DNA from: Clytia hemisphaerica
Taxonomy: Eukaryota > Cnidaria > Hydrozoa > Leptothecata > Clytiidae
NCBI GenBank assembly: GCA_902728285.1
Contig: CACVBU010001021.1
Location: forward strand, 248,001 to 312,000
Length of the DNA stretch: 64,000 nt
Direction: 5' to 3'
The notes under the pieces were generated by a model that made no database searches, was not told the origin of the DNA, and saw only the letters and a list, made by a program, of their open reading frames with translations. This document shows, piece after piece, positions 3,201 to 54,927 of this stretch; the stretch's first letter is position 1; the number at the start of each line of letters is the position of its first letter. The position numbers were made by a program, and so were the translations under genes.

Positions 3201-3628
3201 TTCCTTATTAATAGGTTTAAATATTATAAACAACTTTCACAAAAGATGTTTATCAATAGAGATTTCAAATAAGAATGTTTAATACACAGCTGATTGGCTT
3301 AGATTTCGAAACTCTTTATTGTTTCATTAAAACCTCGGTGCGCATGTGATTTATCCGGTGAATCTCAATATTCAAAACAAGAGCAGTGCTCATATCCCGA
3401 AGAGTAGGAGTTTTACGCTCGAAACGAAGGAAGATATGACGTAGCATACATAAAATAAATATCACGAACCTCAATTCCAGCCATGAATTTATCTAGTTCA
3501 TCTTCATCGCTCATTTCATCTTGTCTTGCGGCTTCTTGTTTGGCGACCACAGAGGAGATCTGATCGTCCACTGTGGATTTCTTCAATAAATCTTCAACAA
3601 TTGATTTGTCAGAGGCTTCGTCATCCAT
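268..3628 (-). CDS. DDX42: DDX42 ATP-dependent RNA helicase, N-terminal part (5' exons only, gene continues off the left edge)
   Basis: Six coding exons on the minus strand: 3628-3470, 2650-2607, 2099-1943, 1299-1264, 817-713 and 387-268. They join in frame to 207 residues. The product is the N-terminus of the DEAD-box helicase DDX42 (SF3B-associated, RNA annealing and unwinding, nuclear). Matching features are an acidic EEDDQESYF segment, an EYDSDGNPI motif, the FESNFYEEHDDI block and a Q-motif region ending SEYSKPTPIQAQ. The helicase core (motif I onward) would lie left of base 1. Introns are GT-AG; the first donor (GTTCGTG) is weak. The start at 3628 is chosen because an acceptor lies 10 nt upstream. 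If the donor-like site at 3695 is used, an in-frame TGA precedes this ATG. The N-terminus is shorter than the vertebrate one. Downstream of ASNSD1 and a small ORF on the same strand. Confidence 0.9.
871..1003 (+). repeat. fragment of a dispersed repeat (family A), DDX42 intron
   Basis: Shares TTTCAGCCCCACT... and ...GGGCTG, GAGACAGGGGTGTA with copies at 24875-25109 and 35102-35312. The left terminal repeat seen in those copies is missing here. Confidence 0.65.
1660..1745 (-). repeat. possible tRNA-derived SINE fragment in a DDX42 intron
   Basis: The minus strand carries a B-box-like GGGTTCGATTTC preceded by a weak A-box-like stretch. Cloverleaf pairing is not convincing, so this is a remnant at best. 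Confidence 0.3.
2327..2484. mobile_element. MITE in a DDX42 intron
   Basis: 158 bp, near-palindromic. Left end ACAGTCGACTCTCTCTAATT and right end inverse of ACAGTAAATTCTCTCTAATT, with TA on the left flank; the pattern suggests a Tc1/mariner-type MITE. Confidence 0.75.
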
Positions 3629-3638
3629 GTCCCATCGT

Positions 3639-3640
3639 CT
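3639..3640 (-). other. splice acceptor 10 nt before the DDX42 start
   Basis: Minus-strand TTCACTGACAG. It could join to a donor-like GTATGT at 3695-3690 (an untranslated first exon) or receive a spliced leader. Confidence 0.6.
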
Positions 3641-3762
3641 GTCAGTGAAAAATGTGGAATATTAATTTTGTTTATACAGTATACTTTTAACATACCATGA
3701 GTCAGGAAATTCATAAATAAATCAAGAATACATACACGAAGAAATGAAAATTTTTGCCCAAC

Positions 3763-3768
3763 TTTATT
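3763..3768 (-). terminator. candidate poly(A) signal for the small ORF
   Basis: Minus-strand AATAAA about 310 bases after the stop at 4080 and 123 bases before the DDX42 acceptor at 3640. Confidence 0.35.
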
Positions 3769-4079
3769 CACTCAGGAGTCACTTTGGGTGGCATAGCAGG
3801 TGTATGCATTTCGTCCATAGTGAACATAGTTCTACAGAAATTCTTACTTCTTCACATATATCATTATCAGTTTTGAATGAAGAACTTCAGTTGATTAGGG
3901 GGTTAAAAATGGTAGCATTAAAAATCAAGAATCACAATTTCGTAAGTACTACAGATATTTCATTGCAGTTGCAACCAATAATCTCTTTATGGACTTTGAG
4001 AATCAATAACATGATTAGGTGTTGAAGAAACGTTTGAATAAAATTAACTGCGATAGAGAGTTTAATAGAAAAGGTTTAA

Positions 4080-4355
4080 TTACGATTTTCGTTTCTTTTT
4101 CTTTTTAGGTGGCGCTTCAACCGGTTCTGGTTCTGGCTCCGCTTCATCAGAAGGGTTGAAAGGATCGTAAAGGTCGTCATCCTCAACAGGTGCTGTGGGA
4201 GCTGATTGTAAATATTTCTTTTCACTTTCGTCTGTGTGGAATTTGGGTAATGAACTCTCAGTTGATCCAACAGTTCGTTGAAAGGGTGATAAATTTGATT
4301 CAAGTCCACCTCTCTTGAATTGGATTTGAATTTTGTTGTTATAGTTTTTACTCAT
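4080..4355 (-). CDS. hypothetical 91-residue protein with acidic middle and lysine-rich tail
   Basis: Single-exon ORF of 91 codons. I do not recognise the family. The first third is basic and polar, the middle is acidic (EDDDLYDPFNPSDEAEPEPE), and the last residues are a run of lysines and arginine (KKKKKRKS), which would suit nuclear or nucleolar targeting. A longer reading frame opens at 4463, but acceptor-like AGs at 4374-4375 and 4360-4361 sit just before the ATG at 4355, so I chose that start. It lies 231 bases after the ASNSD1 stop and 451 bases before the DDX42 start, same strand, which looks like the middle cistron of a polycistronic unit. Reality is supported by codon-like composition, strand and spacing; function is unknown. 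Confidence 0.6.
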   Translation of the reverse strand: MSKNYNNKIQIQFKRGGLESNLSPFQRTVGSTESSLPKFHTDESEKKYLQSAPTAPVEDDDLYDPFNPSDEAEPEPEPVEAPPKKKKKRKS

Positions 4356-4359
4356 TTTT

Positions 4360-4375
4360 CTAGTACGTATTTTCT
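4360..4375 (-). other. acceptor-like sites before the small ORF start
   Basis: Minus-strand TCTTCACCAG ends at 4374 and GTACTAG ends at 4360, 19 and 4 nt upstream of the ATG at 4355. The first has the better pyrimidine tract. Confidence 0.45.
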
Positions 4376-4409
4376 GGTGAAGACATAAGAATATAGAAAT
4401 TGATGTTTG

Positions 4410-4415
4410 TTTATT
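4410..4415 (-). terminator. candidate poly(A) signal for ASNSD1
   Basis: Minus-strand AATAAA, 172 bases after the ASNSD1 stop and only about 35-50 bases before the acceptor-like sites of the next ORF. Confidence 0.45.
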
Positions 4416-4586
4416 TAAAGAAGGTTTTTCAAGAGAGAAAACACATAATTGCAACAATTTCAAGAAATTTCAAGACATACGAGACGGTCACTTTTGATTC
4501 TTTGATAAATTCAAAAATAAAGTATAAAAATTATAAAATGATTTACAAATGGTTAAAATGTAAGATAAATTTAGAGATCGTGATTG

Positions 4587-6419
4587 TTATTTCAAACGTT
4601 CACACTTTTCACTTCCTTTTTCTTTCCCACTTTCAAGCTTAGCAATACGCGAACCAAATTGAATTGCACGTTTAGGTAATCGACTAGCGAAATTCAACTT
4701 TAAATGATGTTCAGCCACTTCACGTAAAAGAATTTTCTCCCCATAACCTCGTTCCAATCTTGGATCACTTTTAACACAAACCGGAAGTGAATCCAAAAAC
4801 CTAACAACATTTTCATCCAAAAATGGAAAACGAGTTTCACGCCCATGATCTGAAATGCATCTATCATCTCGACCTAAATTACGAGAAGAAATTCTATCCA
4901 CTTCCATTTTCATTTCGTTACGTAATGCAGTCCAACCGCCATGCTCATACTTTGTGCGGTGTCTAGCGTACCCACCAAGCTGTTCGTCCGCACCCATTCC
5001 TGTAAATAATACTTTCACTTTCGATTTGTAACATTCATCTACAAGTTCCAGCTCATTTTCATCATTCAAACCATACCTCTTTCCCATACCTCTAGCAGCG
5101 AACCAGATGGCACAACCAATGCTATCGTCAAGAACAGTATTTAAGGGACATACAAGATCATTTATGCGAGATTTTCTTTCAGCTTGTAGTTCCTCTAAAG
5201 TGACGTCTACTTCAATGAAATTCCATTGTCGATCCTCTGGCAGTTCCTTAACAGCTTCTTTTCCTGTCAATCGATCAGGAACATTAAAACTTTTAACATC
5301 AGTATTATCATTACCAGGTTTATTAGCATACTTCTTTTTCATATTTTGAGGTATTTTCTTTTTCTCTTCAAAAGCGACATTGATAAGATCAATACTTTCA
5401 TTTGGGGGAACATGTCTATGAGCAAGAGCTGCCAAAACTACAGAGTCAATCCCTCCTGAAAAAAGGATTCCAAGACTTGTTTCTGGATTACCATCTTGCA
5501 AAAGTGGTCGAGGGATGGTTTCAACTCGAGTTCGAACTGAGTCACTAAGAACTTGTAAAAATTGTTCCTGTATTTTTTCTATAGAACTGTCATTGATTGA
5601 AAGATTCCCAACACAGTCAGCTAAATCTATCGTTGAGTCGTTCTCAAAGCAAGTGATATTTGCCAAATGTTCTAACCCCTCTGAAATTTTATTTTCGCTT
5701 GGAGGGTAATTAATTGTACATCTATGTATAGATCCAAGAAGAGAGTGCTTGTTGGGTTTTGGAGGCAGTATTTTTATTTCAAACGGTTTTGCTGCTTCTT
5801 TAAAAGCTGGCAATGACAAATCATCAATTTTCAAATCAACAAGATTCAAACAATAAATACTCTTAGCTTTGATTTCCTCACTTTCTTCTCTAAAATCTCC
5901 ACAAATAGCTGATGTTAGCAGGAAATTACCATCAATAGAAGATTGTATAAGACTTCTTCTACCAAAATAATCTCTACCATACCAGAGTTTATTCAGTGAT
6001 TTTTGATAAAATACAAAAGCCCACGGACCTTGTATCTTTGTAAACAAATCAGCCATATTCTTTTCAGCTGGTTCAACATTTTCAAGCATTTCTTGAGAGA
6101 TTGCGGTCAAATGTCGCATGAGGATTTCAGTATCATTTTCATGTAGTCCAACATCAAGTCCACCAAATATCTCACCATTCCACAACAAAACATCACCATT
6201 TGAATTTATTAATGGTTGTTTGGTAACACTCTCTCCTCGTAAGTGTAGAACTGTACTACAAAATGTTAGTTCCAATTCATCTGATCCAACCTTGACAATG
6301 CGTGTCAATGATTGACAACTATCTGGACCACGATTTTGAATAAGAGGTATGATATTATCATCAATAGGCTTTGTTTTGACTTCAAGCCTTTTGCAGATTT
6401 TGCAGAAAATGCCACACAT
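4587..6419 (-). CDS. ASNSD1: asparagine synthetase domain-containing protein 1
   Basis: One uninterrupted exon of 610 residues, close to the length of vertebrate ASNSD1. It starts MCGIF, the Ntn-hydrolase start of class II glutamine amidotransferases, so Cys2 (the glutaminase nucleophile position) is present. The N-terminal third is the amidotransferase-like domain. A PP-loop SGGIDS sits near residue 320 and GMGADEQLGGY near residue 475, both typical of the asparagine-synthase ATP-pyrophosphatase domain. The C-terminus matches the ASNSD1 type (ASRLPKRAIQFGSRIAKLE). Cytosolic; the reaction of ASNSD1 itself is not well established, so asparagine synthesis is only inferred from the domains. A strong acceptor (TTTTCTTAG) lies 36 nt before the ATG. 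First gene of a minus-strand trio with the small ORF and DDX42. In vertebrates the ASNSD1 transcript carries an upstream prefoldin-like ORF; I see none here. Confidence 0.93.
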   Translation of the reverse strand: MCGIFCKICKRLEVKTKPIDDNIIPLIQNRGPDSCQSLTRIVKVGSDELELTFCSTVLHLRGESVTKQPLINSNGDVLLWNGEIFGGLDVGLHENDTEILMRHLTAISQEMLENVEPAEKNMADLFTKIQGPWAFVFYQKSLNKLWYGRDYFGRRSLIQSSIDGNFLLTSAICGDFREESEEIKAKSIYCLNLVDLKIDDLSLPAFKEAAKPFEIKILPPKPNKHSLLGSIHRCTINYPPSENKISEGLEHLANITCFENDSTIDLADCVGNLSINDSSIEKIQEQFLQVLSDSVRTRVETIPRPLLQDGNPETSLGILFSGGIDSVVLAALAHRHVPPNESIDLINVAFEEKKKIPQNMKKKYANKPGNDNTDVKSFNVPDRLTGKEAVKELPEDRQWNFIEVDVTLEELQAERKSRINDLVCPLNTVLDDSIGCAIWFAARGMGKRYGLNDENELELVDECYKSKVKVLFTGMGADEQLGGYARHRTKYEHGGWTALRNEMKMEVDRISSRNLGRDDRCISDHGRETRFPFLDENVVRFLDSLPVCVKSDPRLERGYGEKILLREVAEHHLKLNFASRLPKRAIQFGSRIAKLESGKEKGSEKCERLK

Positions 6420-6455
6420 TTTGTATTGTACTTGAACTTTAACTTGTTGTATGTC

Positions 6456-6457
6456 CT
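6456..6457 (-). other. splice acceptor 36 nt before the ASNSD1 start
   Basis: Minus-strand TTTTCTTAG followed by GACATACAAC and then the leader to the ATG at 6419. No donor for a 5' exon was identified upstream. Confidence 0.6.
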
Positions 6458-6612
6458 AAGAAAAGAATATTTTTTTGAATGAAAAACCTTTAGGGTATAA
6501 AAAATATTGTGTTCCCAAACAGCCAAAATTCTTAATTGTGAACATGATAGATAACTGACAGATTATGTTACCAATTTGATTGAATACTTAGAGGCTCGTT
6601 TTATTAAAATTA

Positions 6613-6792
6613 AGATTAGAGACATGTTGCGGGTATAGGTGATTCCAGTACCTAACTCGAGATCGAAAGAGATTCGAAGAGCGCAAAAACTGGACAAAAC
6701 AGAGCTGCTTCTGGCTGAAAGCACAGTTTTTAAGGGTTAATATCTTGAGTTAGGTACAGAAATCACCTATACTTGCAATATATCTCTAATCT
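6613..6792. mobile_element. 180-bp palindromic MITE
   Basis: Both ends begin AGATTAGAGA, and the arms of about 50 bp share GTATAGGTGATT and GTACCTAACTC in inverse orientation. Confidence 0.8.
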
Positions 6793-8162
6793 AAATTTTT
6801 TTGAGAGCTTTCCAAAAATATACAAAAGGTCTCCGTTTTCTCAAGCTAAAATTTTCATCAATTTTTGACCCTATGAGACCATCATATTTGTCCGAAAATC
6901 ATACCAGTGTCAAAAATGGAACCTACGTAATTTTGATTCCCCTACCTCTTAGCTTTCCAAAAATGTATAACAAGTGCTTTGACCAAAACAATCGAGCGAT
7001 TTTACAAAATGCCCTCTTTACCCAAAAATTCCTTAAATCAAACAAATAATGTGTTCCCCATGTAATTTTAAGTTATGAACACTGTACTTTGTAAAATTGT
7101 TTTTCAGAAAAATTACTTAAAAATGCTTTGAAATTTTTATCAAAATTTTAACATAAAACATTGTACACATATGAAGCTAGTCCAGTGTACTTGAGCCACT
7201 GAACCAAATTTCAAAGCTATGTACCAAAGTGTGTAACTTCAGTTTTTCCTATTTAAAACAAAAATAACTGTTATAACCAATTCAAATTATTATGGTCAAA
7301 GTTAGCCAATAAAACCTCATCTTTTTTTCTAGGGTCACAAAGTATCCAAGCAAAAGCTACTTTTTTCACAAAATCCAAGCAAAAGTTGCTAGCTAGACCT
7401 CTCCTAATTCAGATGTGTCTCAAAAATAACATTTTCAAGTTTCTCAAAATATTTCTAAAATCCTGAAAAATTTAAACAGTTATACCACTGCCCTGACATG
7501 CCAACTTATTGCAGTTGATTTTTTTCAATACTATCAATATTGGGCAAGCTGATAAGTGGAAAAAATGAAAAAGGAAAGACAACAGCACAGAGATAACAGA
7601 AGATAACGTGAAGAAACTTGTTTTACATTGGATTTCGGACGTTTTAGAGGTAAAGAGCCACACATAAAAAAACGATTTTTTGGAAATCAAAATCAAAAGT
7701 TTTGCATTTTTGGATAAATATGACCAATCCTTTCTTTCATGTAAAAGATAAGATACTCAACAAAAGAGCCAGAGATTTTTCTAAAAATTCTTCATCATTG
7801 AGTAAAAAATCAGGAAAAATAATGAGAATATCCAAAAAACCTCATATTTAGGCAGATTTCGGCCCAAATTTAAACCAGGTTTCAAATTATAAATTTGACG
7901 CCATAGGTGAAATTTTTTTAGATGTTTGCAAGGCAGTTTTAGAATTTCACAATATAATTTGTAAGTTCTAGAGCATGATGAAATATACCTTGATATAAAA
8001 ACAATTTGGTAGAATAAAATTTAAAATATAAAATGCTTAGAAAAACTAAGTGCTTACTGAGAAAGTGATAAACGAAAGGCGAAGCTTATAATAGAGATAA
8101 TTAATTTTGTTTTTTTGTTTACTAGAAACAGACTGGACATTTAAATAAATATGATGAAAATA
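6793..8162. other. gene-free AT-rich stretch
   Basis: No ORF resembling a known protein, no tandem array and no clear inverted repeat. Likely old transposon-derived or unique intergenic sequence. Confidence 0.5.
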
Positions 8163-8960
8163 TAGAGTGCGGTACCAAGTTGGCGTGAGTTTATAAAGAA
8201 TGGTAACTTTCCCTAGAAAAATGAATCTGTTCTTTTCTTGTCAGACTCCTGGATTCTTTTGACAGGGGATATATATCTAGAGTCTGCTGGAATAGCAAAT
8301 GCAAATTTTATCTGATTTATTGCTCCTGAATTTTCAGATATTTCATACTCCTTCCTAGATTTTTGAAGTGCTTGGAAAATAGCTGGCTCCTTGATGCTAC
8401 TTCAAAATTCGCTCTCTTGGAAGAAAAAAAACAGATATTTTGAAAAAGTCACTGGCTGCTCATGTACAGGGTTGAAATAGAGGTCATGTCATTTTTTGCA
8501 ATTTTGTCTTTTTTTGCAAGTTTTTTTTCAGTGCCAGTTCATTTTGATGTCAATTTGAATTGGTGTAGAATTGCTTACACTTCAATAACTTCTAATGCTA
8601 TTTTTAGGTATCACGTCAATTGGGTAAAAGTGCAATTCTTTCTTGGTACCCTTATTTTGTCTTCGATATATCTTCTAAGGTGAAAATATTTTGCCATGAA
8701 ACTTTTTTTAATTTCTGGTGAGGAAAGATCTTATGTTTTCATAACAAAAAGGCTGATAAATGAAAAATAGAAAAAATATTACTGTTTAAAAATTGTGCAC
8801 CCTAAAACTGATATGGTGGATTTTTATTCCAAATTGTTACTCTATAAGTTACTAAAAGATGCCACTTTAAGACTCTGAACCTGACTTTCTCTGAAACCCC
8901 ATACATTTTGTTTAATTAGTGCCCAAATTTGAAATTCACGCCAACTGGTTACAGCACTAT
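8163..8960. mobile_element. ~800-bp non-autonomous TIR element
   Basis: Ends TAGAGTGCGGTACCAAGTTG and inverse of TAGTGCTGTAACCAGTTGGC, which share AGTTGGCGTGA. TA dinucleotides flank both ends, as for Tc1/mariner-like elements. No transposase ORF. Confidence 0.75.
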
Positions 8961-10491
8961 AGAATGTTTATGTTTAATCAGACTTGTGATCTGATTCTCA
9001 CGTCTGAAATGATGCAGCTTACTCTTTCTTTCTGCCTTCAATTCTTTTACTTCCCTTAAATATTTGTCCCCATGCAATTGTAAGTACATTAAATATTTTC
9101 CAGCTTGATACCGGCAGATCTATTGGCATCCTGCGGGCTAAACTCCTGTCCATCAGTCTATCAATTACAGCCAGCAATAAGCCGGTAGACAGTTTGCCAG
9201 CAACATTTGTGTAAATTCTGTTTTTTTTAAAGAATTTGGCCTATTGGGAGACTTTTGCTTTCTTTGCTAAGTTAAAATCCTAAGCTTGCCCTCTTTTTTT
9301 CTCTTGCAGATAGGATCTTTCCCCGCTAAAGGAGATTTTAAGTTAAGAAAGCAAAAAGAGTCTTACCTTTTTCAACACTCAGTTTAAGATTGGACCTATT
9401 GCCTCGATGACAGCTATATCAAACAGGCAGTATTCTAGAAAGGCAGGACAGTGTCTGTTGCCAAAAAGGGCAATTATTCTAGTATTTTTGCACTAAAAAG
9501 GCTGTTTAATCAAAATTTTAGCAATTTCAGGTACTAACAGGTCAAATACAAATAGCTGCTTACTTTGAGTGCTGCCCACACAGGACCACTAAACAGGGCA
9601 GATAAGGAGACGTAGTGTCGACCTGGCAATAGTCAAATGCCCTTTGAGTATAGAAATGGGGGTAATGCTTTGACAGCAAAAATTTTGAAATTTGGGAATT
9701 AATTCACCGTTGGCTTTTATTACATTAGGGGTAAAGGGACCCTATGATTTCATTCAACTGGATTTCTGAAATACTTCAAAATGCAATATTTCAAGTTTTA
9801 AAATGAGTTTAGAGGATCTTAACCCCTCATTGGATCAGAAATTTTATGGAGAATGCCCATTATGGACAGCTTGGTAAAATCTGTGTGTTTCCATTTTAAG
9901 GTATGTGGAAACCTTTGTTTCGAATCTTTATCAAAAAAATTTTTTTTTATGAATCTGATGTAAAATTTCCAAAGCTTTCCAGACATGTAATTATTGTTTA
10001 TCAATTCCAAATATTTTGGATGATATGAAAGGATTTCCATCTCTTTCTTGTTTCTGTTGTTTTTAAATAAAATGTCTCTCTTCTCTAGTTCAAGAAGACC
10101 GCGGAATAATGTTAAAAAAAGGAGGGGATTATTTGCGTTTTATATAAGAACGACTGCTTGGAAAAAAATTCTTAGAACAGTTAATCTTGTGCCCATTATC
10201 TTTTTGTCCATAGAGAGCCCTTTAGAAGTCATCAAAACAGATGAATGTATCATAATAAGGATTATGATTTATTTCAAAATACAATAGCGAAACGTTTCGG
10301 ACAAGAATAATTTTATTGAACTTTTCTTGTAAAAAATAGTTAGAGAGAACAGGAACTTTATGTTTAAAACTTCTGTTGTTTGATGAATAGTTTTGTTTAA
10401 TTTTTGTGCAAACAAAAGATTAAGGAGAAAACTTAAATCTATGATATCTCAAGACATAAAATCGAGATATCTAGATATCATTCCACAAGTA
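8961..10491. other. gene-free stretch
   Basis: Nothing coding recognised. A weak inverted pair (GACTTTTGCTTTCTTTG near 9250 and its inverse near 9355) hints at one more decayed MITE. Confidence 0.45.
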
Positions 10492-10705
10492 ATAAGTCCC
10501 CTTATGTCTGAGCTACAGACTTCTTTTTTTCTTTATTTTACTCAGGAAAGATAGATCTAAAATAGGTTGCCACGTTTTTCTTTCTTTTTGCCTTAAACTA
10601 AAATTATGACCCTTTAAAGAAAAAATTGGCTATTCTTTTCATGTTTTTTTGTGGATCATGATCATATAAAAAGTTTTATTAAATTGCCGACATAAGGGGA
10701 CTTAT
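10492..10705. mobile_element. 214-bp MITE
   Basis: Perfect 17-bp terminal inverted repeats ATAAGTCCCCTTATGTC, with no coding capacity between them. Confidence 0.7.
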
Positions 10706-11168
10706 CACTCTTTGAAGATGACATGGTCATATTCCCTTTGTCATCTTTTATTTCTTTGTCAAATTGACAAAATTTATTGGTGTCAGCATCAATCAATAGA
10801 GAATTTCATAAGCTTTCAAAAAATATATACTTTTATAATCGAAATACCATCAACTGCTCTAACTTGGGACAATTGGTGATGTGGATGTAACAGGGGATAA
10901 AAATATTGATATAGTTATGAAATATAAATCTTTGACGCCATTTTAATCAATTTTTGTTATCATACCCAAGGTGATGCAGGAGATATAATGAGATATGATA
11001 TATAGCGATTGTGAAATAGCCATTTTCCTACCAGGAGGCTGTTTAAAGATGAGATAAATATATATAACATGTGTACTTTGGATATAACATATGTAATATT
11101 ACCAATGACATTGAAAAGATAACTTCTATTATACATGCGTGATTTATGTGTAATATATAATATAAGTA

Positions 11169-11899
11169 TAGACCTTTTCGCCTTTCCGTCCGCCATCTTG
11201 AATTGTATGCAAAAATACAGGAACGAAAATGCCGTGGTTTGATTTAGTTGGAATGTATGCAAAACATATGCAAGTTTACACAAAGATTAAAAAGACAACA
11301 AAGCATCTTATAAATAAATATTATAATCATTAGAACAATAAAAGATGGAATTTCTTAATCCAAAAGGAAATATTTACAGAACAACAAAAGCCTTTTAGGA
11401 ATTTGTTCTTAAAGACATTGCATATTCTGTTTTCATGCCATAAAAAAATTCCACGAAGACGGAGTACACACATCAAACTTTCAAAACACGCAAACTGAAA
11501 GCAGTAATTATGACGTCACACTTTCTCAATGTTTTGATTTGATCATTTGGCGGCTCTATTCCCAGGAGAATAATTTGCCGTCAGCCGAATAAGGATTGTT
11601 TTTTACCTTCGCGGGTGTTTTTCAGCTTGAGTTTCTGTCTAATGTTATGGTCTTTTGAAGTGCTTGTTCTAAGAGATGAGTGAATATAATTGTTTTTAGT
11701 TTTCAAGAGAAGCAAATTTAATCTTTCTTCTACAAGATTAAACTTTAATATAATGCCAATTATGCATGTAAGTTTTTAATTCATACTTTCCTTTTGCATA
11801 TGTTTTGCATACTTTCTAAGGGAATTTCACCACGGCAATTCGGCCACCATAATTTTTGCATACAATTCAATATGGCGGATGGAAAGGCGAAAAGGTCTA
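11169..11899. mobile_element. 731-bp TIR element with ~110-bp arms
   Basis: Ends TAGACCTTTTCGCCTTTCC with few mismatches; the arms also share GAATTGTATGCAAAAAT, GCCGTGGT and GTATGCAAAACATATGCAA. TA flanks. Confidence 0.82.
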
Positions 11900-14214
11900 T
11901 TACAGGTCCGTGTTATACACAACACAGAATGCAAAAACACGTGGTAGGCACGTGGATAGATTTTGACCTTTAAAAAGGTTCCAGATCAAAAAAATACCTT
12001 CAGAATGATATTTCTAACGATTACGATTATTTTTCAAACATTTTCTTTGTTTTTTACATCAGTTAAAACTGACCTGTCAACACTGACCTGCGTCCTGTGT
12101 CCTGTTTCCTTCATCCTGTCTTCTGCGTTTCGAACCAACCGAGAATAATCATATTTATTCTGTTCTAGTTTTCATGTTATTAGATGCTGTTTTAGAGCTT
12201 TGGAGCTAGCCTGCCTGGAAACCTTTAATAACCCCCTTGGAAAATCTGAAAAATGAACAAAAACCCCTTGGAAAATCAAGGCTCAGACCCAGTTTGTCAA
12301 TACCCCTCTTCTTGACTTCTATATTTAAAAATGATTTAAAAATGGCATAGCCCATTGATTTCCCAGTTTGGAAATTGCGGCTTGTGCGCAGGATATCTCC
12401 AGCGTAGATTTGAGGTTTGAGATCTGCTGCCCTCAACTTTTTCCAGTTAAGTTGGCGCAGCTCCGGCGTAACATTTCCCTCCTTTCCTATTATTCCAGAC
12501 TGGTTGATTTCTAGGAAAAAAGACCAGTACTCTGAGAGTTAATATAAATGAGTTTCAAAAACAGAGGTAACATCCTGAAAAGTCAGTGAAATCTTAGTCT
12601 GGTTAGAAGAGTTGAATATAATCCAACAAAAAAAACAATACAAAAATACAATACAAAATGTACACAAACGCAACGTCTCACACGATCGATCTGCTCAAAA
12701 CAACTGCATTGTCTATCTCTTACATTACGATTTAATACATAATGGCTTACTTGTAGGTACACCTTTAGGCTACGTGCTTCAGAATGTAGTTTGACAAATG
12801 GAGTGACAAATGACTGGACTTTTGGCTTTCTTTGCCAGTCAAATTATGCCTACCGTACTTGCTTTTATGATTCTCCCGCTACAAGGCTACCATTTTGAAT
12901 TTACACATTCACATTTTAAAACCCAGATCTGAAGTATTACGGAGCTAAAAAAATAACTTTTTCCTTCCTGTCGACTAAGTTTTTTATCTCCATTAGCCAA
13001 CTAATATTGAGAATTCACACCAGGTCGATGCCGCATCAAGAAGAAAAGAAAATGGCGGATCAAGATGGCGCGTGTGCGCGTTCATTTTGAAGAAATTCAA
13101 ATCCTAAAATCCTAGAAAGAAAGAATCGAAAAGCTGTAATGTTTATCTATCTTTCCAATTAGAGGGTGATTTTTTTTTAATCTATATACCTCTTTTTTTC
13201 TTGATCTATATACCTCTACCTCTCTGTGGCTTAGCGAACTGAATGAGCGTTCATTCAATCATCAAGCGCATGGAGTAAAATAGGCCTAAGGGTTTGGAGG
13301 AAAATAGGGGTTTGGAGGGAAATAGGTGAGTGAAAAATTGGTCGCTATTGTTTTATTGTTTCAAAATCAGATTTATGTCACAATTCAATTTAGATAGATT
13401 AGAGAGAGTTATTTTATCTGACAAAACATGGGTAGGTAGGGTGCGCACTCGTCGCGGAACGAGGAAGAATTTACAAAAATGAACTTCAATGCATTAGTAC
13501 TTACCTTTAAATCATCCAAATCTGTTCATTTTTTAAAAAATCAATCAGGAATTATCAGGGAAACAAGTAAAAAAAACTGCATCCAGGTGTCTATTTTCTT
13601 TCCAAAGATATTCATGTTTTATGACGTCAAGGTGAAAACGCAATTTAGCGCTGACCACGGCACCGGAAAATTCGAAGAAATTGCGATTTTTTAACAAGAT
13701 TGCGGATTTTTTCATTTAAGCACCATACACCATCTGAAAGCTGAGGATTTCAGCTTTCTAGTGGTGAAATTTGTTTTTAGCTATCATTTCCAGCTCATTA
13801 GCGATAAGCTAAAGTTTAACAGTCATCGGGCCGATTTTCAGACCGCACCAGCAAAACTCCCCACACCCCGTCACACGGAAGACTAGATTTCATCCGCCAT
13901 TTTTGGCGCGATTTTGGTGCTTCCGAAAATTATTTCTTGCTGGCGTGGTGTAAGGAGACAATTCTTTGAAAAGGTGATTTTTTTGTGTTTTGAAAATGGA
14001 ATAACTTTGGGAATACTTAACCAATTCTAATAAATTACCCCTCATTTTTCTCACAAAGGTAAGGACTTTCAAATAAAATTAGTTTGGTTTCTAAAAATTG
14101 AGGGGAAAATTTTGGCCTGTCCACCCATGTCATGGGACGGCAATTCGGCCACCATTTCACCGAACCTCCAAAGTCATTTGATTTGAGTTAATGAACAGCA
14201 TATTAAAAAAGTGT
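11900..14214. other. gene-free repeat mosaic
   Basis: Apart from the repeat at 12217-12362, it holds small tandem duplications near 13170-13215 and 13290-13330. A block at 14127-14205 recurs, diverged, at 20457-20535 (AAGTCATTTGATTTGAG). No gene recognised. Confidence 0.5.
12217..12362. repeat. dispersed ~145-bp repeat, copy 1
   Basis: Shares TAATAACCCCCTTGGAAAAT, CAAGGCTCAGACCC and AATACCCCT with 54322-54452. Confidence 0.7.
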
Positions 14215-15529
14215 CTGAAAACGGCAATTTTTTCAACGATGAAATGCTGAATCAGCAAAATGTGTTGTCCTTTTAAGGGCAAAGATGTCAGAGGTGTTTG
14301 AAAATAGTAAAATTGCATCGAGAAAAAGGTTTTTCGGATTTTTAAATTGATTTTTTCAATTTTTCGTTGCTCAATACCAGACGGTATTAATCGATAAATT
14401 CGATTATCAAAGTAATTGATAATGATCGAAGTAATCCAACGACCATTTATCGATTAACAATCGAATTTGAGTACCAAAATTTCAAAAAAATTGTGAGTCT
14501 TCGATCACTTTCTTAACAACCCTTCGACGAATCGATTACCGTTTGAGTACTTTGATTGTTATTGATTACTTTCGATAACTTTGACAACTTCGATAACCAA
14601 TTGATTACTTTGATAACCAATTACTATGATATATCTAAAACCAAAGCACAAAAAGAAGACCCGCCATAAAGATTGACCTCCTTATAAATATTACCGTGAG
14701 AGGTCCTAAATCAGTGTAGCTGGAACCTCGATATTCCAGGATTAGAAAAAGCTATACCTGTTATCTTTTTTCTTTAAAGAATCAACAAGCCATCAACATC
14801 GATAAATTACACACATTCCCTCAGAAACTTTTAAAATTATCTGCCATTATGACTTTTATGAAGCCGTTCCGAAATTAACCAATCGGGTTAGGTATCGGAA
14901 TTCCTATGGGAGTTCTTTTCCGAGATTTGTAAAATAGCTAAGTCAGCAAAAAATCTTTTCCCGGGGGTTTGAGGAATAAACAGAACTGTTATCATTCGTT
15001 TTTTATTTAACCGTATATTTAAATTTGCGCTCAAAAATACTTTAATAAATAAGTTAATAATATTCAAATATACTATTTGTATCTCTCAGAAAATAAACAC
15101 TTACAGAACGACATAGTTTATCATTTGAACTACCCCCGTGTTTGGACCATTCTATCGTGGGCGCAAAATAGGGCGGAAACTAAGTAGCACCCTCAGTGCA
15201 AGATTGCCGCCTCATCTTTATTCGCCCGCACGAAAACGAGCTAGTCATTTTTTTCTCACGCGCTCAAGGGGAAAAGGAAAGTGATCGATATTCTTTGAAG
15301 AAAAAACGTCAGAAACAAACCCAAAGACCAAAAGATGTATTTTGTTGTTGAGAATCGATCCTGTGAAGATGAAAAAATTTCTGCTATGCGTTTTTTTTGG
15401 AACGGTGAAAAACTCTAATTTCGATCTTCCTTAAGGTAAAGAGGTTGCGAGATTTGGGCTAGCGAGGCAAAAATCGCTAAAAAACTGGTAAAATTGTAAT
15501 CCTCAAAAATCGAAGTTCCAGCCTCACTG

Positions 15530-16360
15530 TAAATCCGACACCACTGCCTAAATCCGATGGGGTCTTTCAAAGATACAAACTAAAATAAAAACAAACATTT
15601 CGCTGTGACGCAACAAAGATACCAAAGTGTCAACTAAACTGAGAGATATGATACACTGAACCAATTGAACCAAATAACAATAATTGCTTCTTATAACAAA
15701 ACATTTTTTTATTGCAATATGCACAATGTCATAAATGACAACAGTAGTAACAGCATCATAAAAAGTAATGAGATGTTTTGATTTTCCAAAGCACACGAAA
15801 ATATAAAAGAGGTCTGTGTACAAGCGTGCTCATTTTGAAACGTTATGTAATCAAGCCTGGTTTTTATTACTTTACACTGGCACTTGGCTTGATTGCGGGC
15901 CTTCCGTAAATAAACATCCGGAATTATGGGTGGTAAAGAGGGCGTTGATAGTTGCCGTCTCATTGATTCGATGTTTGTTATTCAAATTAAGTGCTACCGC
16001 ATCATCTGCCCTTTTTTCAACTTCGCGCCATTTTTGCAATTTAGTCTGTTTGTTTCTTGATAGAAACCAGCCCACGTTGTTTCGTATTTTTCCCGCACAA
16101 GTCACTTTTATTACAAAACACTGTTATCGTTTTAAACATGAGCAACTGATCCAGAATAAAAGGTAATTATTTTTACAACTCATTCTTTTTAATTACATTA
16201 ATTGACATCTTGACATTACAGCTATCTTGTAAGATGTTTTGTTTCGAGAGTTCTAGCAATAGTTTATTGTTCAACTTGGGGAGGGAATGGTTATAAACAT
16301 AGAATTTTTTTTGATAACAGTTATTTGGGGGGTCGGAATTAGACAGTGGTGTCGGATTTA
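15530..16360. mobile_element. innermost TIR element (family B), copy 1
   Basis: 831 bp, ends TAAATCCGACACCACTG in inverse orientation. The first ~180 bp and last ~140 bp match the copy at 19780-20140. Confidence 0.78.
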
Positions 16361-16438
16361 GGACCTCTCACGGTACCCATTTCGCCCGCCATTTTGTGTG
16401 CCTTCGCCCTGGGTTTCCTCAAGTTACCTCACATGGTG

Positions 16439-16519
16439 CGTTCTGATTGGTCAGAGAAAACAAAAGTGGTTTTTGCGCGTTCTGATTGGTCGGAGAAAAC
16501 GAAAGTGGTTTTCGCGCGT
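16439..16519 (+). repeat. two ~42-bp tandem repeats with inverted CCAAT boxes
   Basis: Unit core GCGTTCTGATTGGTC, GAGAAAAC and AAAGTGGTTTT, repeated twice; a third CTGATTGG-like site does not follow directly. Confidence 0.8.
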
Positions 16520-17628
16520 GAATCGCATGTTTTAATTGGCCAAAATTAACTTGGTTTCAGATTATTTTGACGCGCTGCTACTGGAAACATATTTGATAAA
16601 ATCGAAGGTATTCAATATGATCGAAAGTGATTAAAAGTAATCGAACAGTAATCGAAACAATCGAACAAATTGAAAATGATCGATAAAAATGCCATAATTT
16701 GGAGTTGAGTGAGTATTCGATCACCGATAGAATCGATAAGTGGTCACTGATCACCTTCGATTGTTATCGATCATTATTGATTACTTCGATCACAATCGAA
16801 CGTTTGGTTAGTACCGTCTTGTCAATAACATGAAAAGCTCTAAAATAATATGTTAAAAGATCCTGCATCGATGCCGAAGCACAGCCAGAAAGAGATAACA
16901 AAACCCCCTTGTAAATTTGTTTACATATGACTCGATTTTGCTCTCTGCATTTCCAACAAAAACCAGTTGAAAACAAAACTAAACGAGGCACAGTGGGCCT
17001 ACTTATCGCGAGGGTGTCAAATACCACGTGTTCAATAATAATATCAACTTTTATTTCCAAAAACGGCAATAATTGCCGAAAACGGCAATTTTCATTTATT
17101 TACTTTTTTATTTTTATGCTGATTCAGCATTTCATCGTTGAAAAAATTGCCGTTTTCGGCAATAATTGCCAAAAAGAGCAATAATTGCAGTTTATATCTT
17201 AAACACCCAACTGTGTGCACTCGGAGAGGAACGAAGAAGTACGATTGATAAACTTGGTGGAGTTATCAAAACAAAATTCAGTCAGGGCTTCCTTTCACTT
17301 TATCGATATTACGCGAACGGCAGTGTGCGCTAAATTATTTTGGTTTCACTTTCGATTTCAAGCAAAGGTCTTAAAGCAACAGGGCGTGCGTACATAGCAA
17401 CGGGGCTGGGTAGAAAAATCTAAACATAGAATTCAAAAAAAATACTGATCATAGTATTAGACAGGCAGCTGATAACATCAAAAAATGCAAAATAAGTGAA
17501 AATTGAGGAACAAATATTGAGTACTTATTTTGAAATCTTTAAAGTTCAGAAAAATTTACTCGGCGTGTTTAAAAATCTTTACCGGGCGTGTCTGAGAATA
17601 ATTTACAAGCAAGCAAAAGTGGGAAAAT

Positions 17629-18723
17629 CGGTTAGTGTAAAACGCAGGTCACAGGTCACAGGTCACAGGTCAGTGATGACAGGTTGACTCTAATCAATGT
17701 CATTGCAGAGGAAAATGTTTGGAAAACACAAAGAATTATCAAAAACATAATTCTCAAGCAATTTCATCCATGTAAAACCATTTCAAACATCAAAATTTAA
17801 CCATGTGCTTTTATCGATCTTTCGCAGTTTGCGCCGTGTATAACGCAGACCAGAAAATATTTGAAACCATATTATACGTATAATAGGTATATTACATATT
17901 GTAATGTTTGTAATGTTATATGATGGTTACATATAATAAAACACATCGCTCTAAAACTACCTTCTCAGATAGAGAACTCACGAGCTTCTGATTGGTGTAA
18001 TTTTATATCCAGCCATATTGTTATCATCATATTCGGTATGCTAAATATTTTTGGTGTTTTTCTCTTGTAAGACATGATATTTTGTGATTCTGTCAATATT
18101 TTTGTCAAAAATTGTCATTAAGTCATTAAAATAACAATTGAATGATTAATTAATAGTCTCATCCTTCTAAAACCACTCTCTTAGGGACCTCACAAGCTTC
18201 TGATTGGTGCCGTTTTATATCCATTCACACTATCAACATCACATTCTGTATTATAAATATTTTTCGTGTTTTTGTCTTTTCTTGCATCAGATTTTATGAT
18301 TCTGTTAATATTTTTGTCAAAAATTGTCATTAAGACATTAAAATAATAACTGAATAATTAATTAGTTCCATCCTTCTAAAACCACTCTCTTAGGGACCTT
18401 GCAAGCTTCTGTTTGGTGTCATTCATTCATCACATTTTGTATAATAAATATTTTTCGTGCTTTTGTCTTGTTAGGCATCATATTTAATGATTTTGTAATT
18501 ATTTTTGTGTCACTAGGTTGTTATTCTATTCAATTGCCATTTTATAATATCTAAATACCATGTATTACTTTTTTGTAATTTAATGCGTTATGTATTGATG
18601 TTATGTTATGATCTTATTATCTTTTTTTCCGGTCTGCACTTTGTTGACCTATGACCTGTGACCTGTAACCTGTGACCTGTGACCTGCGACCTGTGACCTG
18701 TGACCTGCGTTTTACACTAACCG
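17629..18723. mobile_element. TIR element whose ends are AGGTCA arrays and whose core is a tandem repeat
   Basis: 1095 bp. Both ends start CGGTTAGTGTAAAACGCAGG and continue as 7-bp-period AGGTCAC repeats (about four at the left end, about nine at the right). The core holds three ~210-bp tandem units (17951, 18167, 18374; the last is short), each with CTTCTGATTGGTG-like and TTTTTGTCAAAAATTGTCAT motifs. Flanks GTGGGAAAAT and GTGGAAAAT look like an imperfect target duplication. Confidence 0.82.
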
Positions 18724-18754
18724 GTGGAAAATTGATGTTGCAAAATTTCAAAGT

Positions 18755-21476: not shown

Positions 21477-21506
21477 AAATACAAATTAAACAAATAGTAA
21501 ACCAAC

Positions 21507-23449
21507 ATGCCTAGTGTAGAAGAGATTTACAAAAATTTTGGCATCCTTGCTGATGCTGGAGAGGAGGCAAGTAAACATCCAGAAGCATACCAGAGCATGA
21601 TTGATGCTACTAAAGGAGCTACTGCTGAAAAGAAATTGGCTTGTCAATTCATCCCAAGATTCTTTGTTCATTTCCAAAGCTTAAGTGATGCTGCAATCAA
21701 TGCACAGCTTGATTTATGTGAAGATGACGAGACTCCTATCCGACGACAAGCCATTCGTTCTTTACCAGAGTTCTGCAAAACATCAAACGACTTTATCAAC
21801 AAAATCACAGATATTTTGACACAACTTTTGCAACAAGAAGACGCCGTTGAATTGAAGATTGTCAAATCTGGATTGCAAGCATTGATCAGGAAAGATCCAC
21901 AAGGAGCCTTAAGTGGTATCTTCTCACAGATTGCTGATGGTGATGATCTTGTTCGTGAAAAAGCTATCCAATTTGTTTCACAGCTAGCCACAGGTTTGCT
22001 ATTTGTTTTTCTCTGTTCAATATTATATCTTTACTATTTATGTGAAATCTCTATAATAATAGTGCAAAGATGCTTTGTCTTTTTGGATAAAAGTTTTATA
22101 CTTGCAAATAATCTTTAATAAATATTAATGCTCATTGTTTGAAAGTCTTGTTTAGTAAGCCAATCACCCCCTTTTTCTCCCTTATTCCTTTTAATTCAAT
22201 CCCAAAGGTAGACTCGTTCCCAAAGAAAGTATAAGTCACATAATTCTAATGACCATTTTAAGGTGGTGTTTTGGACGGAATTGAGAATGCTGGTGAAGCC
22301 TTGTTACAGGAAATTCGTAAAATTTTGAGTGATGTCACTGGTGAAGAGTTTACGTCCTTCATTGCAATCCTTGGTACTGTCAAGTCCATCTCCTCAAAAC
22401 CTCAGAACCTGGCTGATATAATCACTGAACAGGCCGAGTTGGATAAAACGTTCCTACCAACAGAAGTGGAGAGCCTTGATCGACTGATTTGCTGCACCAG
22501 ACAAGCTTTACCGTTCTTTGGAAAAGGTGCATCTCCTGCCACCTTCATGGAGCATTTGTTTAATAATGTTTTCCCGAAATTGGATGAAGTGCCTTCCTCT
22601 GAAAGTGTCAATTACAAATATGAGGTGTTAAAATTGATCACTGAATTGAGTACTTACTCAACTGAGGACGTTGCTAAACAACACATTCAAACCATCTTTG
22701 ATCAACTCATGGAATGTTTGCCAGTTCCTTCTGATGAAGAAATAAAAGAAGAAGCTTTACAAAAACTTGATTTTTCTTCAGTCGAATGTTTCATTTTCAT
22801 CTTACACAAATTGGGTGCTAAAAATCCAGAATTCTTAACTGCAGAAGATTTTACAGATAAGTTGAAAGAGTTCCGTACACGTCTTCAATATTTTGGTCGA
22901 ATGGTACAAGCGTACATCAAGCAACTCAAGATGTCTCTGCAAGGTTCAGATGGTGCGAAATTGGAAGAATCAGATAATAAACTGAAAGTAGTTGTCTTGA
23001 GAACATGTAACAACATTTACGCTTTGCTCAAGGATTTCTTACGCAAGCCACCCTCTTATAAATGCAATATTCAGGTCTCTTGGAAATCGAAAGCTAACCC
23101 TTTGACCAGTTCAAATGAAAGTGTTGAGGAGAAGCGTAAACGTGCTGGTATTACACCAATCAGCTTGGAAAATCTTCCCGCTAAGAAAGAAAGAGCTGCC
23201 ACTGGAGGGGCTAAAGGAACACTTTATTCATTACCAAGTGAAAGAAAAGGAGTACGCATGGATGAGTATGAAAATACCAACAAGAATAAAAGAAATTCTT
23301 TCGAGAAATCGCCTGGACGTAGAGGTGGTGGCAGAGGTGGGAATCGTGGTGGACGTCGAAACAGCGGAGGAGGTGGCGGTTGGAATCGCAAACAAAACAG
23401 AGATTATGGCAGCAAGCAAGAAGAATATGAAAATTTCCTCAAACGTTAG
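21507..23449 (+). CDS. API5: apoptosis inhibitor 5
   Basis: Two exons, 21507-21993 and 22263-23449, joined across a GT-AG intron in phase 1 to give 557 residues (vertebrate API5 is a little over 500). API5 is a nuclear HEAT/ARM-repeat protein that suppresses E2F1-driven apoptosis and has been linked to mRNA export. The N-terminus PSVEEIYKNFGILADAGEE and the block INAQLDLCEDDETPIRRQAI are diagnostic. The second exon carries VTGEEFTSF, the DRLICCTRQALPFF block and LQYFGRMVQAYIKQL. The tail has a basic stretch followed by RGG/glycine-rich repeats (about residues 515-540), a likely RNA-binding segment. An acceptor (TTTTTTAG) ends at 21476, 30 nt before the ATG. First of three tightly spaced plus-strand genes with MED10 and TIMM29. 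Confidence 0.95.
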
Positions 23450-24337: not shown

Positions 24338-24382
24338 GGAAAAAATAATTGAAAAATAACAAAGATATCAAAAAGAAAAAAG

Positions 24383-24811
24383 ATGAATGACAAACAAGAA
24401 GGTAAAGCGTCTAAACAAGATTTTGATCATTTGGAAAATAATTTAGCAGATTTTATAGAAAACTGTCGACAGATTGGTATCATGGTGAGTGACTTCCAAC
24501 CAGGTGCTCAACCAGCTCTTAATACAAAACTCAATGATATGATATCTAACATGCAAGAAATTGATAAAAACAAAAATGCATTTTCAGACATATTTGTACC
24601 ACCAGAAATTTTTAAATACATTGATGAGGGACGTAACCCAAGGCTATACACTAAGGATTGTTTACAAAAGGTCCGCGAAAAGAAGGAGGAGGTTGACAGC
24701 AAGGTGGATGCTTATAAGAATTTTAAAGGAATCCTTGAAGAAGAATTGAAAAAAGAATTGCCACAAACTATGGATAAGCATTCCAAATTCAAACGACAAC
24801 AACACAAATGA
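24383..24811 (+). CDS. MED10: Mediator complex subunit 10
   Basis: Single exon, 142 residues, near the usual length of MED10 (about 135 in vertebrates). MED10 is a middle-module subunit of Mediator and bridges activators and RNA polymerase II in the nucleus. Diagnostic segments are FDHLENNLADFIENCRQIGI, VSDFQPGAQPALNTKL, VPPEIFKYIDEGRNPRLYTK and a helical, lysine- and glutamate-rich C-terminal half. The start is the first ATG after an acceptor (TTTTCCAG ending 24337), 45 nt upstream. It lies 933 bases after the API5 stop and upstream of TIMM29 on the same strand, and a polyadenylation hexamer follows at 25194. No intron or truncation is seen. Confidence 0.95.
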   Translation: MNDKQEGKASKQDFDHLENNLADFIENCRQIGIMVSDFQPGAQPALNTKLNDMISNMQEIDKNKNAFSDIFVPPEIFKYIDEGRNPRLYTKDCLQKVREKKEEVDSKVDAYKNFKGILEEELKKELPQTMDKHSKFKRQQHK

Positions 24812-25939: not shown

Positions 25940-25979
25940 TAACAAAAATAACACATTAAATATAAACAAAAAAGTCAAA

Positions 25980-26537
25980 ATGTGGCGGCAGGCACGCTCA
26001 GTGAATCAAAAACTATTTCCACAATTCGAAAGTCTGAAGCAAGGACGATTATCGAAGGTGTTTGATATGTACCGTGATTACACGCAGGCTTTGAAAGACA
26101 CAGTGGGAGTAATCAAGGAAAAACCTATCAAATGTACCGTATACGGAACATTATTGACACTTTCCGTATATTGCAATCACCGTAATCCGGACATGGGCAG
26201 TTACAGGCAATCATTATTGGATGCATCTAATGAACACACTTTGCTTAGTGATTCTATACGGAATAAAAAATCAGCGGACGAGGTTAAAAAACTGATGAAA
26301 TATGTTGCCGAAGATAGGCTACAATTGATTCATTTTGGAGTGTTTTCTGTCATTTTATTAAATGATCATTCGAAATATCATGATGCTTATGATAAACACT
26401 GTAGTACTATACAATCACGTTGGATTTATATTGATGAGTGGAAGGAGAGAATAAAAGATGTTGGATTTTTGGATAAATGGTATTTTTTGGAGCGAAACAT
26501 GATTGATTTTGATGTCAATGAGGATGAGTTTAATTGA
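25980..26537 (+). CDS. TIMM29: mitochondrial import inner membrane translocase subunit Tim29
   Basis: Single exon, 185 residues. The family member in vertebrates (TIMM29/C19orf52) is longer at the C-terminus; this one stops soon after the conserved NEDEF motif. TIM29 is a subunit of the TIM22 carrier translocase in the mitochondrial inner membrane and contacts the TOM complex. Matching features are the RDYTQALKD motif, a hydrophobic stretch around residues 50-65 that could be the membrane segment, a conserved SLLDASNEHTLL block, and the C-terminal DVGFLDKWYFLERNMIDFDV segment. The basic, arginine-containing N-terminus suits mitochondrial targeting. The ATG follows an acceptor (TTCTTTCAG ending 25939) by 40 nt. 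Last gene of the plus-strand trio. Confidence 0.88.
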   Translation: MWRQARSVNQKLFPQFESLKQGRLSKVFDMYRDYTQALKDTVGVIKEKPIKCTVYGTLLTLSVYCNHRNPDMGSYRQSLLDASNEHTLLSDSIRNKKSADEVKKLMKYVAEDRLQLIHFGVFSVILLNDHSKYHDAYDKHCSTIQSRWIYIDEWKERIKDVGFLDKWYFLERNMIDFDVNEDEFN

Positions 26538-31897: not shown

Positions 31898-33080
31898 CAA
31901 CAATTACAATTTGTAGTCATGTACTACCTAAATTGTGCAGACTACCGGGCTACCTTAACGGAGCGGCCCGTTTGTTTCTACAAAACCTTAGAAAGATAAC
32001 AGTAACATTGGCAAGTCAGTGCAGAAACAATTTGTAGTCATGTGCTACCTAAATTGTGCAGACTACCGGGCTACCTTAATGGAGCGGCCTGTTTGTTTCT
32101 ACAAAACCTTAGAAAGATTACTGTAACATTGGCAAGCTAGTGCAGAAACAATTTGTAGTCATGTGCTACCTAAATTGTGCAGACTACCGGGCTACCTTAA
32201 TGGAGCGGCCTGTTTGTTTCTACAAAACCTTAGAAAAATTACTGTAACATCGGCAAGTTAGTGCAGAAACAATTTGTAGTCATGTGCTACCTAATTTGTG
32301 CAGACTACCGGGCTACCTTAACGGAGCGGCCCGTTTGTTTCTACAAAACCTCAGAAAAATTACTGTAACATTGGCAAGTTAGTGCAGAAACAATTTGTAG
32401 TCATGTGCTACCTAAATTGTGCAGACTACCGGGCTACCTTAACGGAGCGGCCCGTTTGTTTCTACAAAACCTTAGAAAAATTACTGTAACATTGGCAAGT
32501 TAGTGCAGAAACAATTTGTAGTCATGTGCTACCTAAATTGTGCAGACTACCGGGCTACCTTAACGGAGCAGCCCGTTTGTTTCTACAAAACCTTAGAAAG
32601 ATAACAGTAACATTGGCAATTCAGTGTGGAAACAATTTGTAGTCATGTGCTACCTAAATTGTGCAGACTACCGGGCTACCTTAATGGAGCGGCCTGTTTG
32701 TTTCTACAAAACCTTAGAAAGATTACTGTAACATTGGCAAGTCAGTGTGGAAACAATTTGTAGTCATGTGCTACCTAAATTGTGCAGACTACCGGGCTAC
32801 CTTAATGGAGCGGCCCGTTTGTTTCTACAAAACCTTAGAAAGATAACAGTAACATTGGCAAGTCAGTGTGGAAACAATTTGTAGTCATGTGCTACCTAAA
32901 TTGTTCAGACTACCGGGCTACCTTAATGGAGCGGCCCGTTTGCTTCTACAAAAACTTAGAAAGATAACAGTAACATTGGCAAGTCAGTGTGGAAACAATT
33001 TGTAGTCATGTCTGCTACCTAAATTGTGCAGACTACCGGGCTACCTTAATGGAGTAGCCCGTTTGCTTCTGCGTAAAAAC
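31898..33080 (+). repeat. satellite array, period 121 bp, about 9.7 units
   Basis: The phrase TTTGTAGTCATGTGCTACCT starts at 31910, 32031, 32152, 32273, 32394, 32515, 32636, 32757, 32878 and 32999, exactly 121 bases apart. Each unit carries a potential hairpin CGGGC...GCCCG. Confidence 0.95.
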
Positions 33081-38907: not shown

Positions 38908-39938
38908 CAATGTTAAAGAGAAGTATACTTTGAGCTTCTCGTGGGGGGGGGGGGGTGGAGGAGCTCTCAGGCTTGTTTTACATAATTTTAAATCAAGTTA
39001 TCAAATGTTTCACATTTTGTACATTATTCAACATATTTAGTCTACTCTGTTTCAGTGCATCTCTTACATCTGTTAAACCACTTATTAAAGCTATCTAGCT
39101 AAGCTCTATTGGCTGACCTTCCAGCCTCGGCTGGTTTATTTCACTAATGTAATATCGACTTGTGAAGTATAGTAAAAGTCGTATGACTCACAGTCGTAGA
39201 TACTGGAGTAAATAAATATTTCAGCGTGGTTTCCCTATTGACGATAAAAGGTGATTTCCATGTTAGGCACTTTTTGGCCCAAATTTGCCTAAAAATTATT
39301 TTTTCGAAAATTGGGCTCCATCAGAAATTAAATATTACCATTTTATATCGCTATGCAAAAAATAAGAGAAAAACACCAATTCAATCTGGAGAAATGCTCA
39401 TTTTCCCTAAATATGGCAAAAGGGAATTTCCCCAAATAAGAAAATCCGATTTTTAGGACCAAAAGAAATTTCGGAAAAAACTGCTTTAGACACTTTTTAG
39501 AGAACCTCGCCCTCTATCTTTATGCAAAAAATCAATTTCACAAAATTAATTTTTTTCGAAAATCGGGCTCCGTCACTTTTCGGGAATCACCATTCTACAT
39601 TACTGTGCAAGAAATCAGAAAAAACTAATGAGCCAATCTCGAACGAACATCGGTTAATTTAAAGAATCTCCATCCAACGGGGTAGGCCCGACAAAAGGAT
39701 GACTGAAATAAATAGATATTCATTTCTCAAGATAATTGAAATGGTTTTTGGGATTCAATTTCGCATAAACCCTGAGGAAGATTTTTCAATTATTTCGAAA
39801 AGAGATTTTTTCGGTATAAATAAGGGTACCCTTATGGCTCACAGCATCCCTTTCTCCCCGGGACATGGAGCTAATCACAATGGGAATGGGAACTGGAACC
39901 ACACGGAGAATACTGAAGAACGAATGAACGGGATGTGG
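38908..39938. other. gene-free stretch with a ~250-bp direct duplication
   Basis: 39290-39400 and 39540-39650 share TTTTTTCGAAAATTGGGCTC (second copy ATCGGGCTC) and following text. An ORF from 39699 runs antisense to the NACA 3' end and is not credible. Confidence 0.5.
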
Positions 39939-39944
39939 TTTATT
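39939..39944 (-). terminator. candidate poly(A) signal for NACA
   Basis: Minus-strand AATAAA 142 bases after the NACA stop. Confidence 0.55.
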
Positions 39945-40085
39945 TATATTTTATTACAAAGAGGTCTGTATACAAAGTTTGGTGGTTTTGTACATGAGGT
40001 TGTATGCCCCACTCATCAAACACAATCCCTGTGTATTGATTTGCGTAGATGTCAGAATGCTTGAAGGTTTTGATAGTTTTGCCAT

Positions 40086-54924
<14,839 letters not shown>

Positions 54925-54925
54925 A

Positions 54926-54927
54926 CT
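54926..54927 (-). other. splice acceptor one base before the NACA start
   Basis: Minus-strand TTTTTTCGCATTTCAG, then T, then the ATG at 54924. The transcript leader must therefore come from an upstream exon or a trans-spliced leader. Confidence 0.7.

Follow-up and report, generated by a model that had tools for sequence, protein, structure and literature searches.

A 3′ splice acceptor lies 1-45 nt ahead of the start codon in all six gene starts within the window, by which we mean the whole 64-kb stretch of DNA that was analysed (35% G+C by base counts). The six sites are well supported as true 3′ splice sites, that is, as exon boundaries. Spliced-leader trans-splicing is probably the most economical account of all six, and we infer that a spliced-leader (SL) RNA is the source of the leader. 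The initial annotation of this DNA had claimed such an acceptor for every gene start and had concluded that most transcripts receive a spliced leader. The first claim stands for six of six starts, and its seventh case is probably an internal coding exon. The second keeps its place as the preferred reading of well-supported splice sites, and cis-spliced 5′ UTR introns would give the same acceptors.

The result is likely one more case of a known process, here identified from the genome sequence by itself. If it is true, genomic DNA is enough to reveal that the 5′ ends of animal messages are made by trans-splicing, and gene annotation changes accordingly in its start sites, its operons and the lack of 5′ UTR exons.

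Genes of the window and the acceptors ahead of them

Seven host genes were recognised by a codon-usage scan together with Pfam and PDB comparisons. Weaker coding-like segments were also seen in the scan, and further genes are possible. Six of the seven genes (DDX42, ASNSD1, API5, MED10, TIMM29 and NACA) start inside the window, and the start of the FBXL-like gene lies beyond it.

4587..6419, minus strand: ASNSD1 coding sequence, single exon (Pfam Asn_synthase, 5e-23)
From 4355, running off the window, minus strand: DDX42 (Pfam and PDB comparisons, codon-usage scan)
4084..4355, minus strand: probable exon 1 of DDX42, the small ORF of the initial annotation (coding signal, phase)
3470..3638, minus strand: exon 2 of DDX42, with the ATG at 3628 earlier taken as the DDX42 start; it probably follows a coding intron of 445 nt that ends at its acceptor
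21507..23449, plus strand: API5, two coding exons (Pfam API5)
24383..24811, plus strand: MED10, one coding exon (Pfam Med10, 8e-36; PDB)
25980..26537, plus strand: TIMM29, one coding exon (Pfam Tim29, 1e-43; PDB)
40086..54924, minus strand: NACA, six coding exons (PDB match over its length)
63771 to 59340, minus strand: exons of the FBXL-like leucine-rich-repeat gene, start outside the window

The FBXL-like gene has one LRR_6 match, below the Pfam cut-off, in one of its six exon pieces, and its name is our assumption from the repeat pattern in the exons. TIMM29 has been described as metazoan-specific (PMC5016092), so the source of the DNA is taken to be an animal. Coding introns are absent from ASNSD1, MED10 and TIMM29; the initial annotation had also counted three such genes.

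The positions of the start codons were checked against human proteins. API5 aligned with human API5 from residue 1 onwards, residue 9 of NACA with human residue 11, residue 12 of MED10 with human residue 3, and residue 30 of TIMM29 with human residue 38. The ASNSD1 protein begins MCGIF, which we take to be the catalytic N-terminus of its enzyme family. The first exon of DDX42 gave no alignment. The acceptors and the short leaders that they leave ahead of the start codons are as follows.

4356..4373, minus strand: DDX42 leader (ahead of the small ORF), 18 nt before ATG 4355; acceptor TATGTCTTCACCAG just above 4373, score 7.0
6420..6455, minus strand: ASNSD1 leader, 36 nt; acceptor TATTCTTTTCTTAG just above 6455, score 10.2
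21477..21506, plus strand: API5 leader, 30 nt; acceptor AATGATTTTTTAG just before 21477, score 6.05
24338..24382, plus strand: MED10 leader, 45 nt; acceptor ATTTATTTTCCAG just before 24338, score 12.1
25940..25979, plus strand: TIMM29 leader, 40 nt; acceptor ATTTTTTCTTTCAG just before 25940, score 10.1
54925..54925, minus strand: NACA leader, 1 nt; acceptor TTTTTTCGCATTTCAG just above 54925, score 7.1

The distances given earlier for ASNSD1 (36 nt), API5 (30 nt), MED10 (45 nt), TIMM29 (40 nt) and NACA (1 nt) were thus confirmed, each with a score of at least 6.05. For the small ORF an acceptor 4 or 19 nt upstream had been proposed. The farther site, at 4373, holds at a distance of 18 nt, and the 4-nt site is poor (-8.2 in a position-specific model). 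NACA has a second strong acceptor, from which the exon would start at 54971, 47 nt upstream of the ATG (score 8.6, 60-nt range), and its leader may be 1 or 47 nt long.

The acceptor model was trained on the acceptors of 18 coding introns in DDX42, API5, NACA and the FBXL-like gene, with the start sites excluded. When each of these introns was scored with itself left out of the model, the scores ran from 2.8 to 12.7. The model pools positions and was chosen after the first scores from a position-specific matrix had been seen. That matrix, built from the same number of sites, was dropped as noisy (NACA -1.2, API5 3.2, DDX42 exon 2 -1.4). A count of pyrimidines before the AG was added as a training-free check.

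Controls and the base composition of leaders

The start acceptors were compared with 1360 control ATGs on both strands; known coding regions, an LTR element and the loci of DDX42 and the FBXL-like gene were excluded. The threshold of 6.05 is the score of the weakest of the six start acceptors, and the search covered 45 nt before each ATG. A site reaching the threshold within 1-45 nt was present at six of six starts versus 10.4% of the control ATGs. It was also present in 9.8% of 132 tiles lying 46-1000 nt upstream of the same six genes, and at none of 22 internal Met codons. No comparable acceptor precedes the start codon of the LTR element (best score -1.2).

Fisher's combined p for the six starts is about 5e-6 at the 45-nt range, a limit that was set in the initial annotation and equals the longest leader, and is hence post hoc. 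With 1359 control ATGs, the combined p varied with the search range, being 0.08 at 30 nt, 3e-5 at 60 nt, 3e-4 at 100 nt and 2e-3 at 150 nt. The pyrimidine count, applied at four cut-offs, was passed by 6/6, 5/6, 5/6 and 4/6 starts versus 43%, 26%, 14% and 7% of control ATGs (p = 0.006, 0.005, 3e-4 and 3e-4, respectively).

Base composition changes at the same points. The leaders, 170 nt in total, are 63% A and 17% T, versus 28% A and 45% T over the 100 nt that precede each of the six acceptors. This switch from T-rich to A-rich DNA is absent in 142 control ATGs with an equally good acceptor, where A and T stand at 32.5% and 32.7%. By excess of A over T, each of the five leaders of at least 15 nt ranks within the top 1-4% of 96 control leaders. 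No ATG occurs in the 170 nt of leader, versus a total of 18 in the 200 nt upstream of each of the six acceptors. The leaders of API5 and MED10 each contain an in-frame stop, and these two stretches are therefore non-coding.

Probable trans-splicing, candidate operons and the alternatives

Under trans-splicing, each pre-mRNA would begin with a T-rich outron. The spliceosome would remove the outron and join a short leader from a separate SL RNA to the acceptor, and translation would then begin at the first AUG. The same process could supply the 5′ end of each downstream message in a co-transcribed cluster, and the window has two groups of genes arranged in a manner that fits operons. ASNSD1 and DDX42 lie head to tail on the minus strand, separated by a short spacer.

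4374..4586, minus strand: candidate operon junction, the ASNSD1-DDX42 spacer of 213 nt from the ASNSD1 stop to the DDX42 acceptor; an AATAAA lies at 4415

API5, MED10 and TIMM29 follow one another head to tail on the plus strand, with stop-to-acceptor spacers of 888 and 1128 nt. Both same-strand clusters may be operons; co-transcription, suggested by gene order and spacing, would be less sure for API5-MED10-TIMM29 than for ASNSD1-DDX42. A spacer of 417 nt with a T-rich tract and an acceptor is reported to act as a trans-spliced operon junction in Hydra, as shown by transgenes, mutation of the acceptor and RT-PCR (PMC3273482).

The acceptors could instead close ordinary cis-spliced introns in the 5′ UTR, each gene having an upstream non-coding exon that is joined to the acceptor. 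In a variant of this explanation, neighbouring genes share one upstream exon through alternative splicing. DNA alone cannot distinguish a trans-spliced leader from a cis-spliced 5′ UTR intron at these acceptors. The start acceptors resemble those of coding introns, which either mechanism would produce, and human NACA and ASNSD1 presumably have 5′ UTR introns.

Ordinary 5′ UTR introns place the same type of acceptor just before the start codon, but they need a separate upstream exon for each gene and are described in about 35% of human genes rather than in all (PMC2864569; PMC5311483). At that rate, which is human and may not be this animal's, six of six would arise by chance with a probability of 0.35^6 = 0.002, and requiring the intron to end no more than 45 nt from the ATG lowers the figure further. 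5′ UTR introns are described as less frequent in mitochondrial genes (PMC5311483), of which TIMM29 is one. An acceptor between the transcription start and the start codon, as expected for trans-splicing, is present in six of six genes, and the minority occurrence expected of 5′ UTR introns is not what the window holds. Trans-splicing is favoured because six of six is improbable at the human rate, and ordinary 5′ UTR introns appear an unlikely explanation for the whole set.

The ASNSD1-DDX42 spacer, the one in which donors were scored, bears on the same choice. It contains two fair GT donors, its best, which score 3.0 and 3.3, and both are weaker than the weakest of 19 confirmed donors (3.6). 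They would yield introns of 173 and 107 nt, and the 17 confirmed introns span 135 to 8253 nt. A cis-spliced intron in the spacer is thus possible, since 173 nt falls within the confirmed range. However, unless the first exon is located further upstream, the 213 nt would also have to fit that exon, a promoter and the 3′ end of ASNSD1.

The proposal that the sites are unused and due to chance, T-rich AGs being common in A+T-rich DNA, gains something from the 10.4% of control ATGs with such a site and from the combined p of 0.08 at the 30-nt range, but it is very improbable given six of six starts, the p values of 5e-6 (45 nt) and 3e-4 (100 nt), and the change in base composition at these sites.

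The proposed trans-splicing has parallels in several animals. The hydrozoans Hydra and Hydractinia, like the source of the window, combine an A+T-rich genome with a T-rich tract and AG near the start codon and with short same-strand spacers. Leaders and SL RNA genes are known in those animals, and neither was seen in the window. Leaders have been reported on at least one third of genes in Hydra (PMC7986045) and also in Hydractinia (PMC11067881). The ctenophore Hormiphora californensis, in which at least 56% of Iso-Seq reads carry a leader (PMC8527503), has a high leader rate of the kind that six of six would imply, but its leader has no convincing copy in the window. In the glass sponge Aphrocallistes vastus, also a non-bilaterian animal, a leader of about 37 bp is described on 4% of the long reads (PMC10282587), a much lower rate than six of six. 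Spliced leaders are also reported in Schistosoma (PMC5832876) and copepods (PMC4664967).

A hydrozoan or a ctenophore may be the source as far as the window goes, and in either of them trans-splicing would be expected. In a lineage from which leaders have not been reported, it would bear on how often trans-splicing arose in animals. A further reading, which we consider doubtful, is that trans-splicing is near-universal, and includes operons like ASNSD1-DDX42, in an animal lineage without a prior description of the process.

The search for a leader RNA gene that the initial annotation had suggested covered the 64-kb window, where no SL RNA was found with Rfam at gathering scores or at E up to 5. 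The Hormiphora leader was the only leader tried against the window. Its best resemblance, at 40971 inside an LTR, scored 37 and is probably due to chance; that score was equalled by none of 10 plain shuffles and by one of 60 dinucleotide shuffles. Among pattern matches to API5 exon 2, none of 17 in genome contigs and none of three in viral contigs was confirmed, and for NACA exons 1-2 none of 18 in viral contigs was.

The probable first exons of DDX42, repeats and a candidate tRNA

DDX42 had been given a start at ATG 3628 with an acceptor 10 nt upstream, at 3638, and the small ORF had been listed as a separate gene start. The small ORF (start at 4355) and the sequence following 3638 probably belong to a single gene, as its exons 1 and 2. 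The site at 3638 is thus most likely the acceptor of a coding intron, which brings the number of gene starts from seven to six. An acceptor ahead of 4355 is present under either model of DDX42.

Phase, a sequence motif and the length of the N-terminus all point to a single gene. In the codon-usage scan, the coding signal of the small ORF runs nearly to its end. The sole GT of the small ORF that is in phase with exon 2 lies at the end of the ORF, and the GTAA of that donor itself forms the apparent stop. The joined frame reads ...KKKKKRKS^RWDMDDE..., in which RKS^RWD resembles the KRKKSRWD found at the human DDX42 C-terminus; this likeness came from a second alignment, which at -2.1 bits is not significant. 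We take the RKSRWD of the joined protein to resemble a UHM-ligand motif. Ahead of the region aligned with human DDX42 there are 128 residues in the joined protein and 105 in the human one. The N-plug of human DDX42, residues 69-81, is described as binding SF3B1 (PMC9935549), and a start at 3628 would leave little space for this region. If the small ORF is exon 1, RKSRWD stands near the N-terminus here, and the similar motif stands at the C-terminus in human DDX42. The small ORF also contains an in-phase GC site, which would score 1.5 as a GT; it was disfavoured, as its use would remove RKS^RWD.

A two-gene model, with the small ORF on its own and DDX42 starting at 3628 behind its own trans-splice acceptor, is unlikely. 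In its favour, the joining donor, ATC|GTAATT, scores -0.6, under all 19 confirmed donors (3.6-11.4), and the score of the acceptor at 3638 is 6.1. Pfam gave nothing for the small ORF up to E 0.1, and the PDB matches of this ORF are weak (E 0.23 and 0.34). Many trans-splice acceptors of Schistosoma are reported to lie at intron-exon boundaries (PMC5832876), so the site at 3638 could act in both cis- and trans-splicing. Against two genes, an out-of-frame AUG with A at -3 and G at +4 comes first after that acceptor, and the ATG at 3628 comes second. The single-gene model also retains the RKS^RWD junction and the N-terminal length.

The LTR element is a BEL/Pao retrotransposon at about 40590-48290, with an open frame of 2037 aa at 41579-47692 on the plus strand (Pfam Peptidase_A17, 1e-27). 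It sits in coding intron 4 of NACA (48611-40359, 8253 nt), on the strand opposite to NACA. A tandem repeat occupies 31906-33070, with a 121-bp unit in 9.6 copies and 95% matches, and a 31-base stretch of it had no matches in viral contigs. Two 7-bp arrays lie 1 kb apart at 17645-17672 and 18645-18707; they consist of CAGGTCA and its reverse complement TGACCTG, in four and nine copies. On the opposite strand within NACA intron 1, a candidate tRNA-Arg (CCG) at 52731-52815 scores 31.3 versus an Rfam cut-off of 29 bits, and this feature is a candidate tRNA gene or tRNA-derived repeat.
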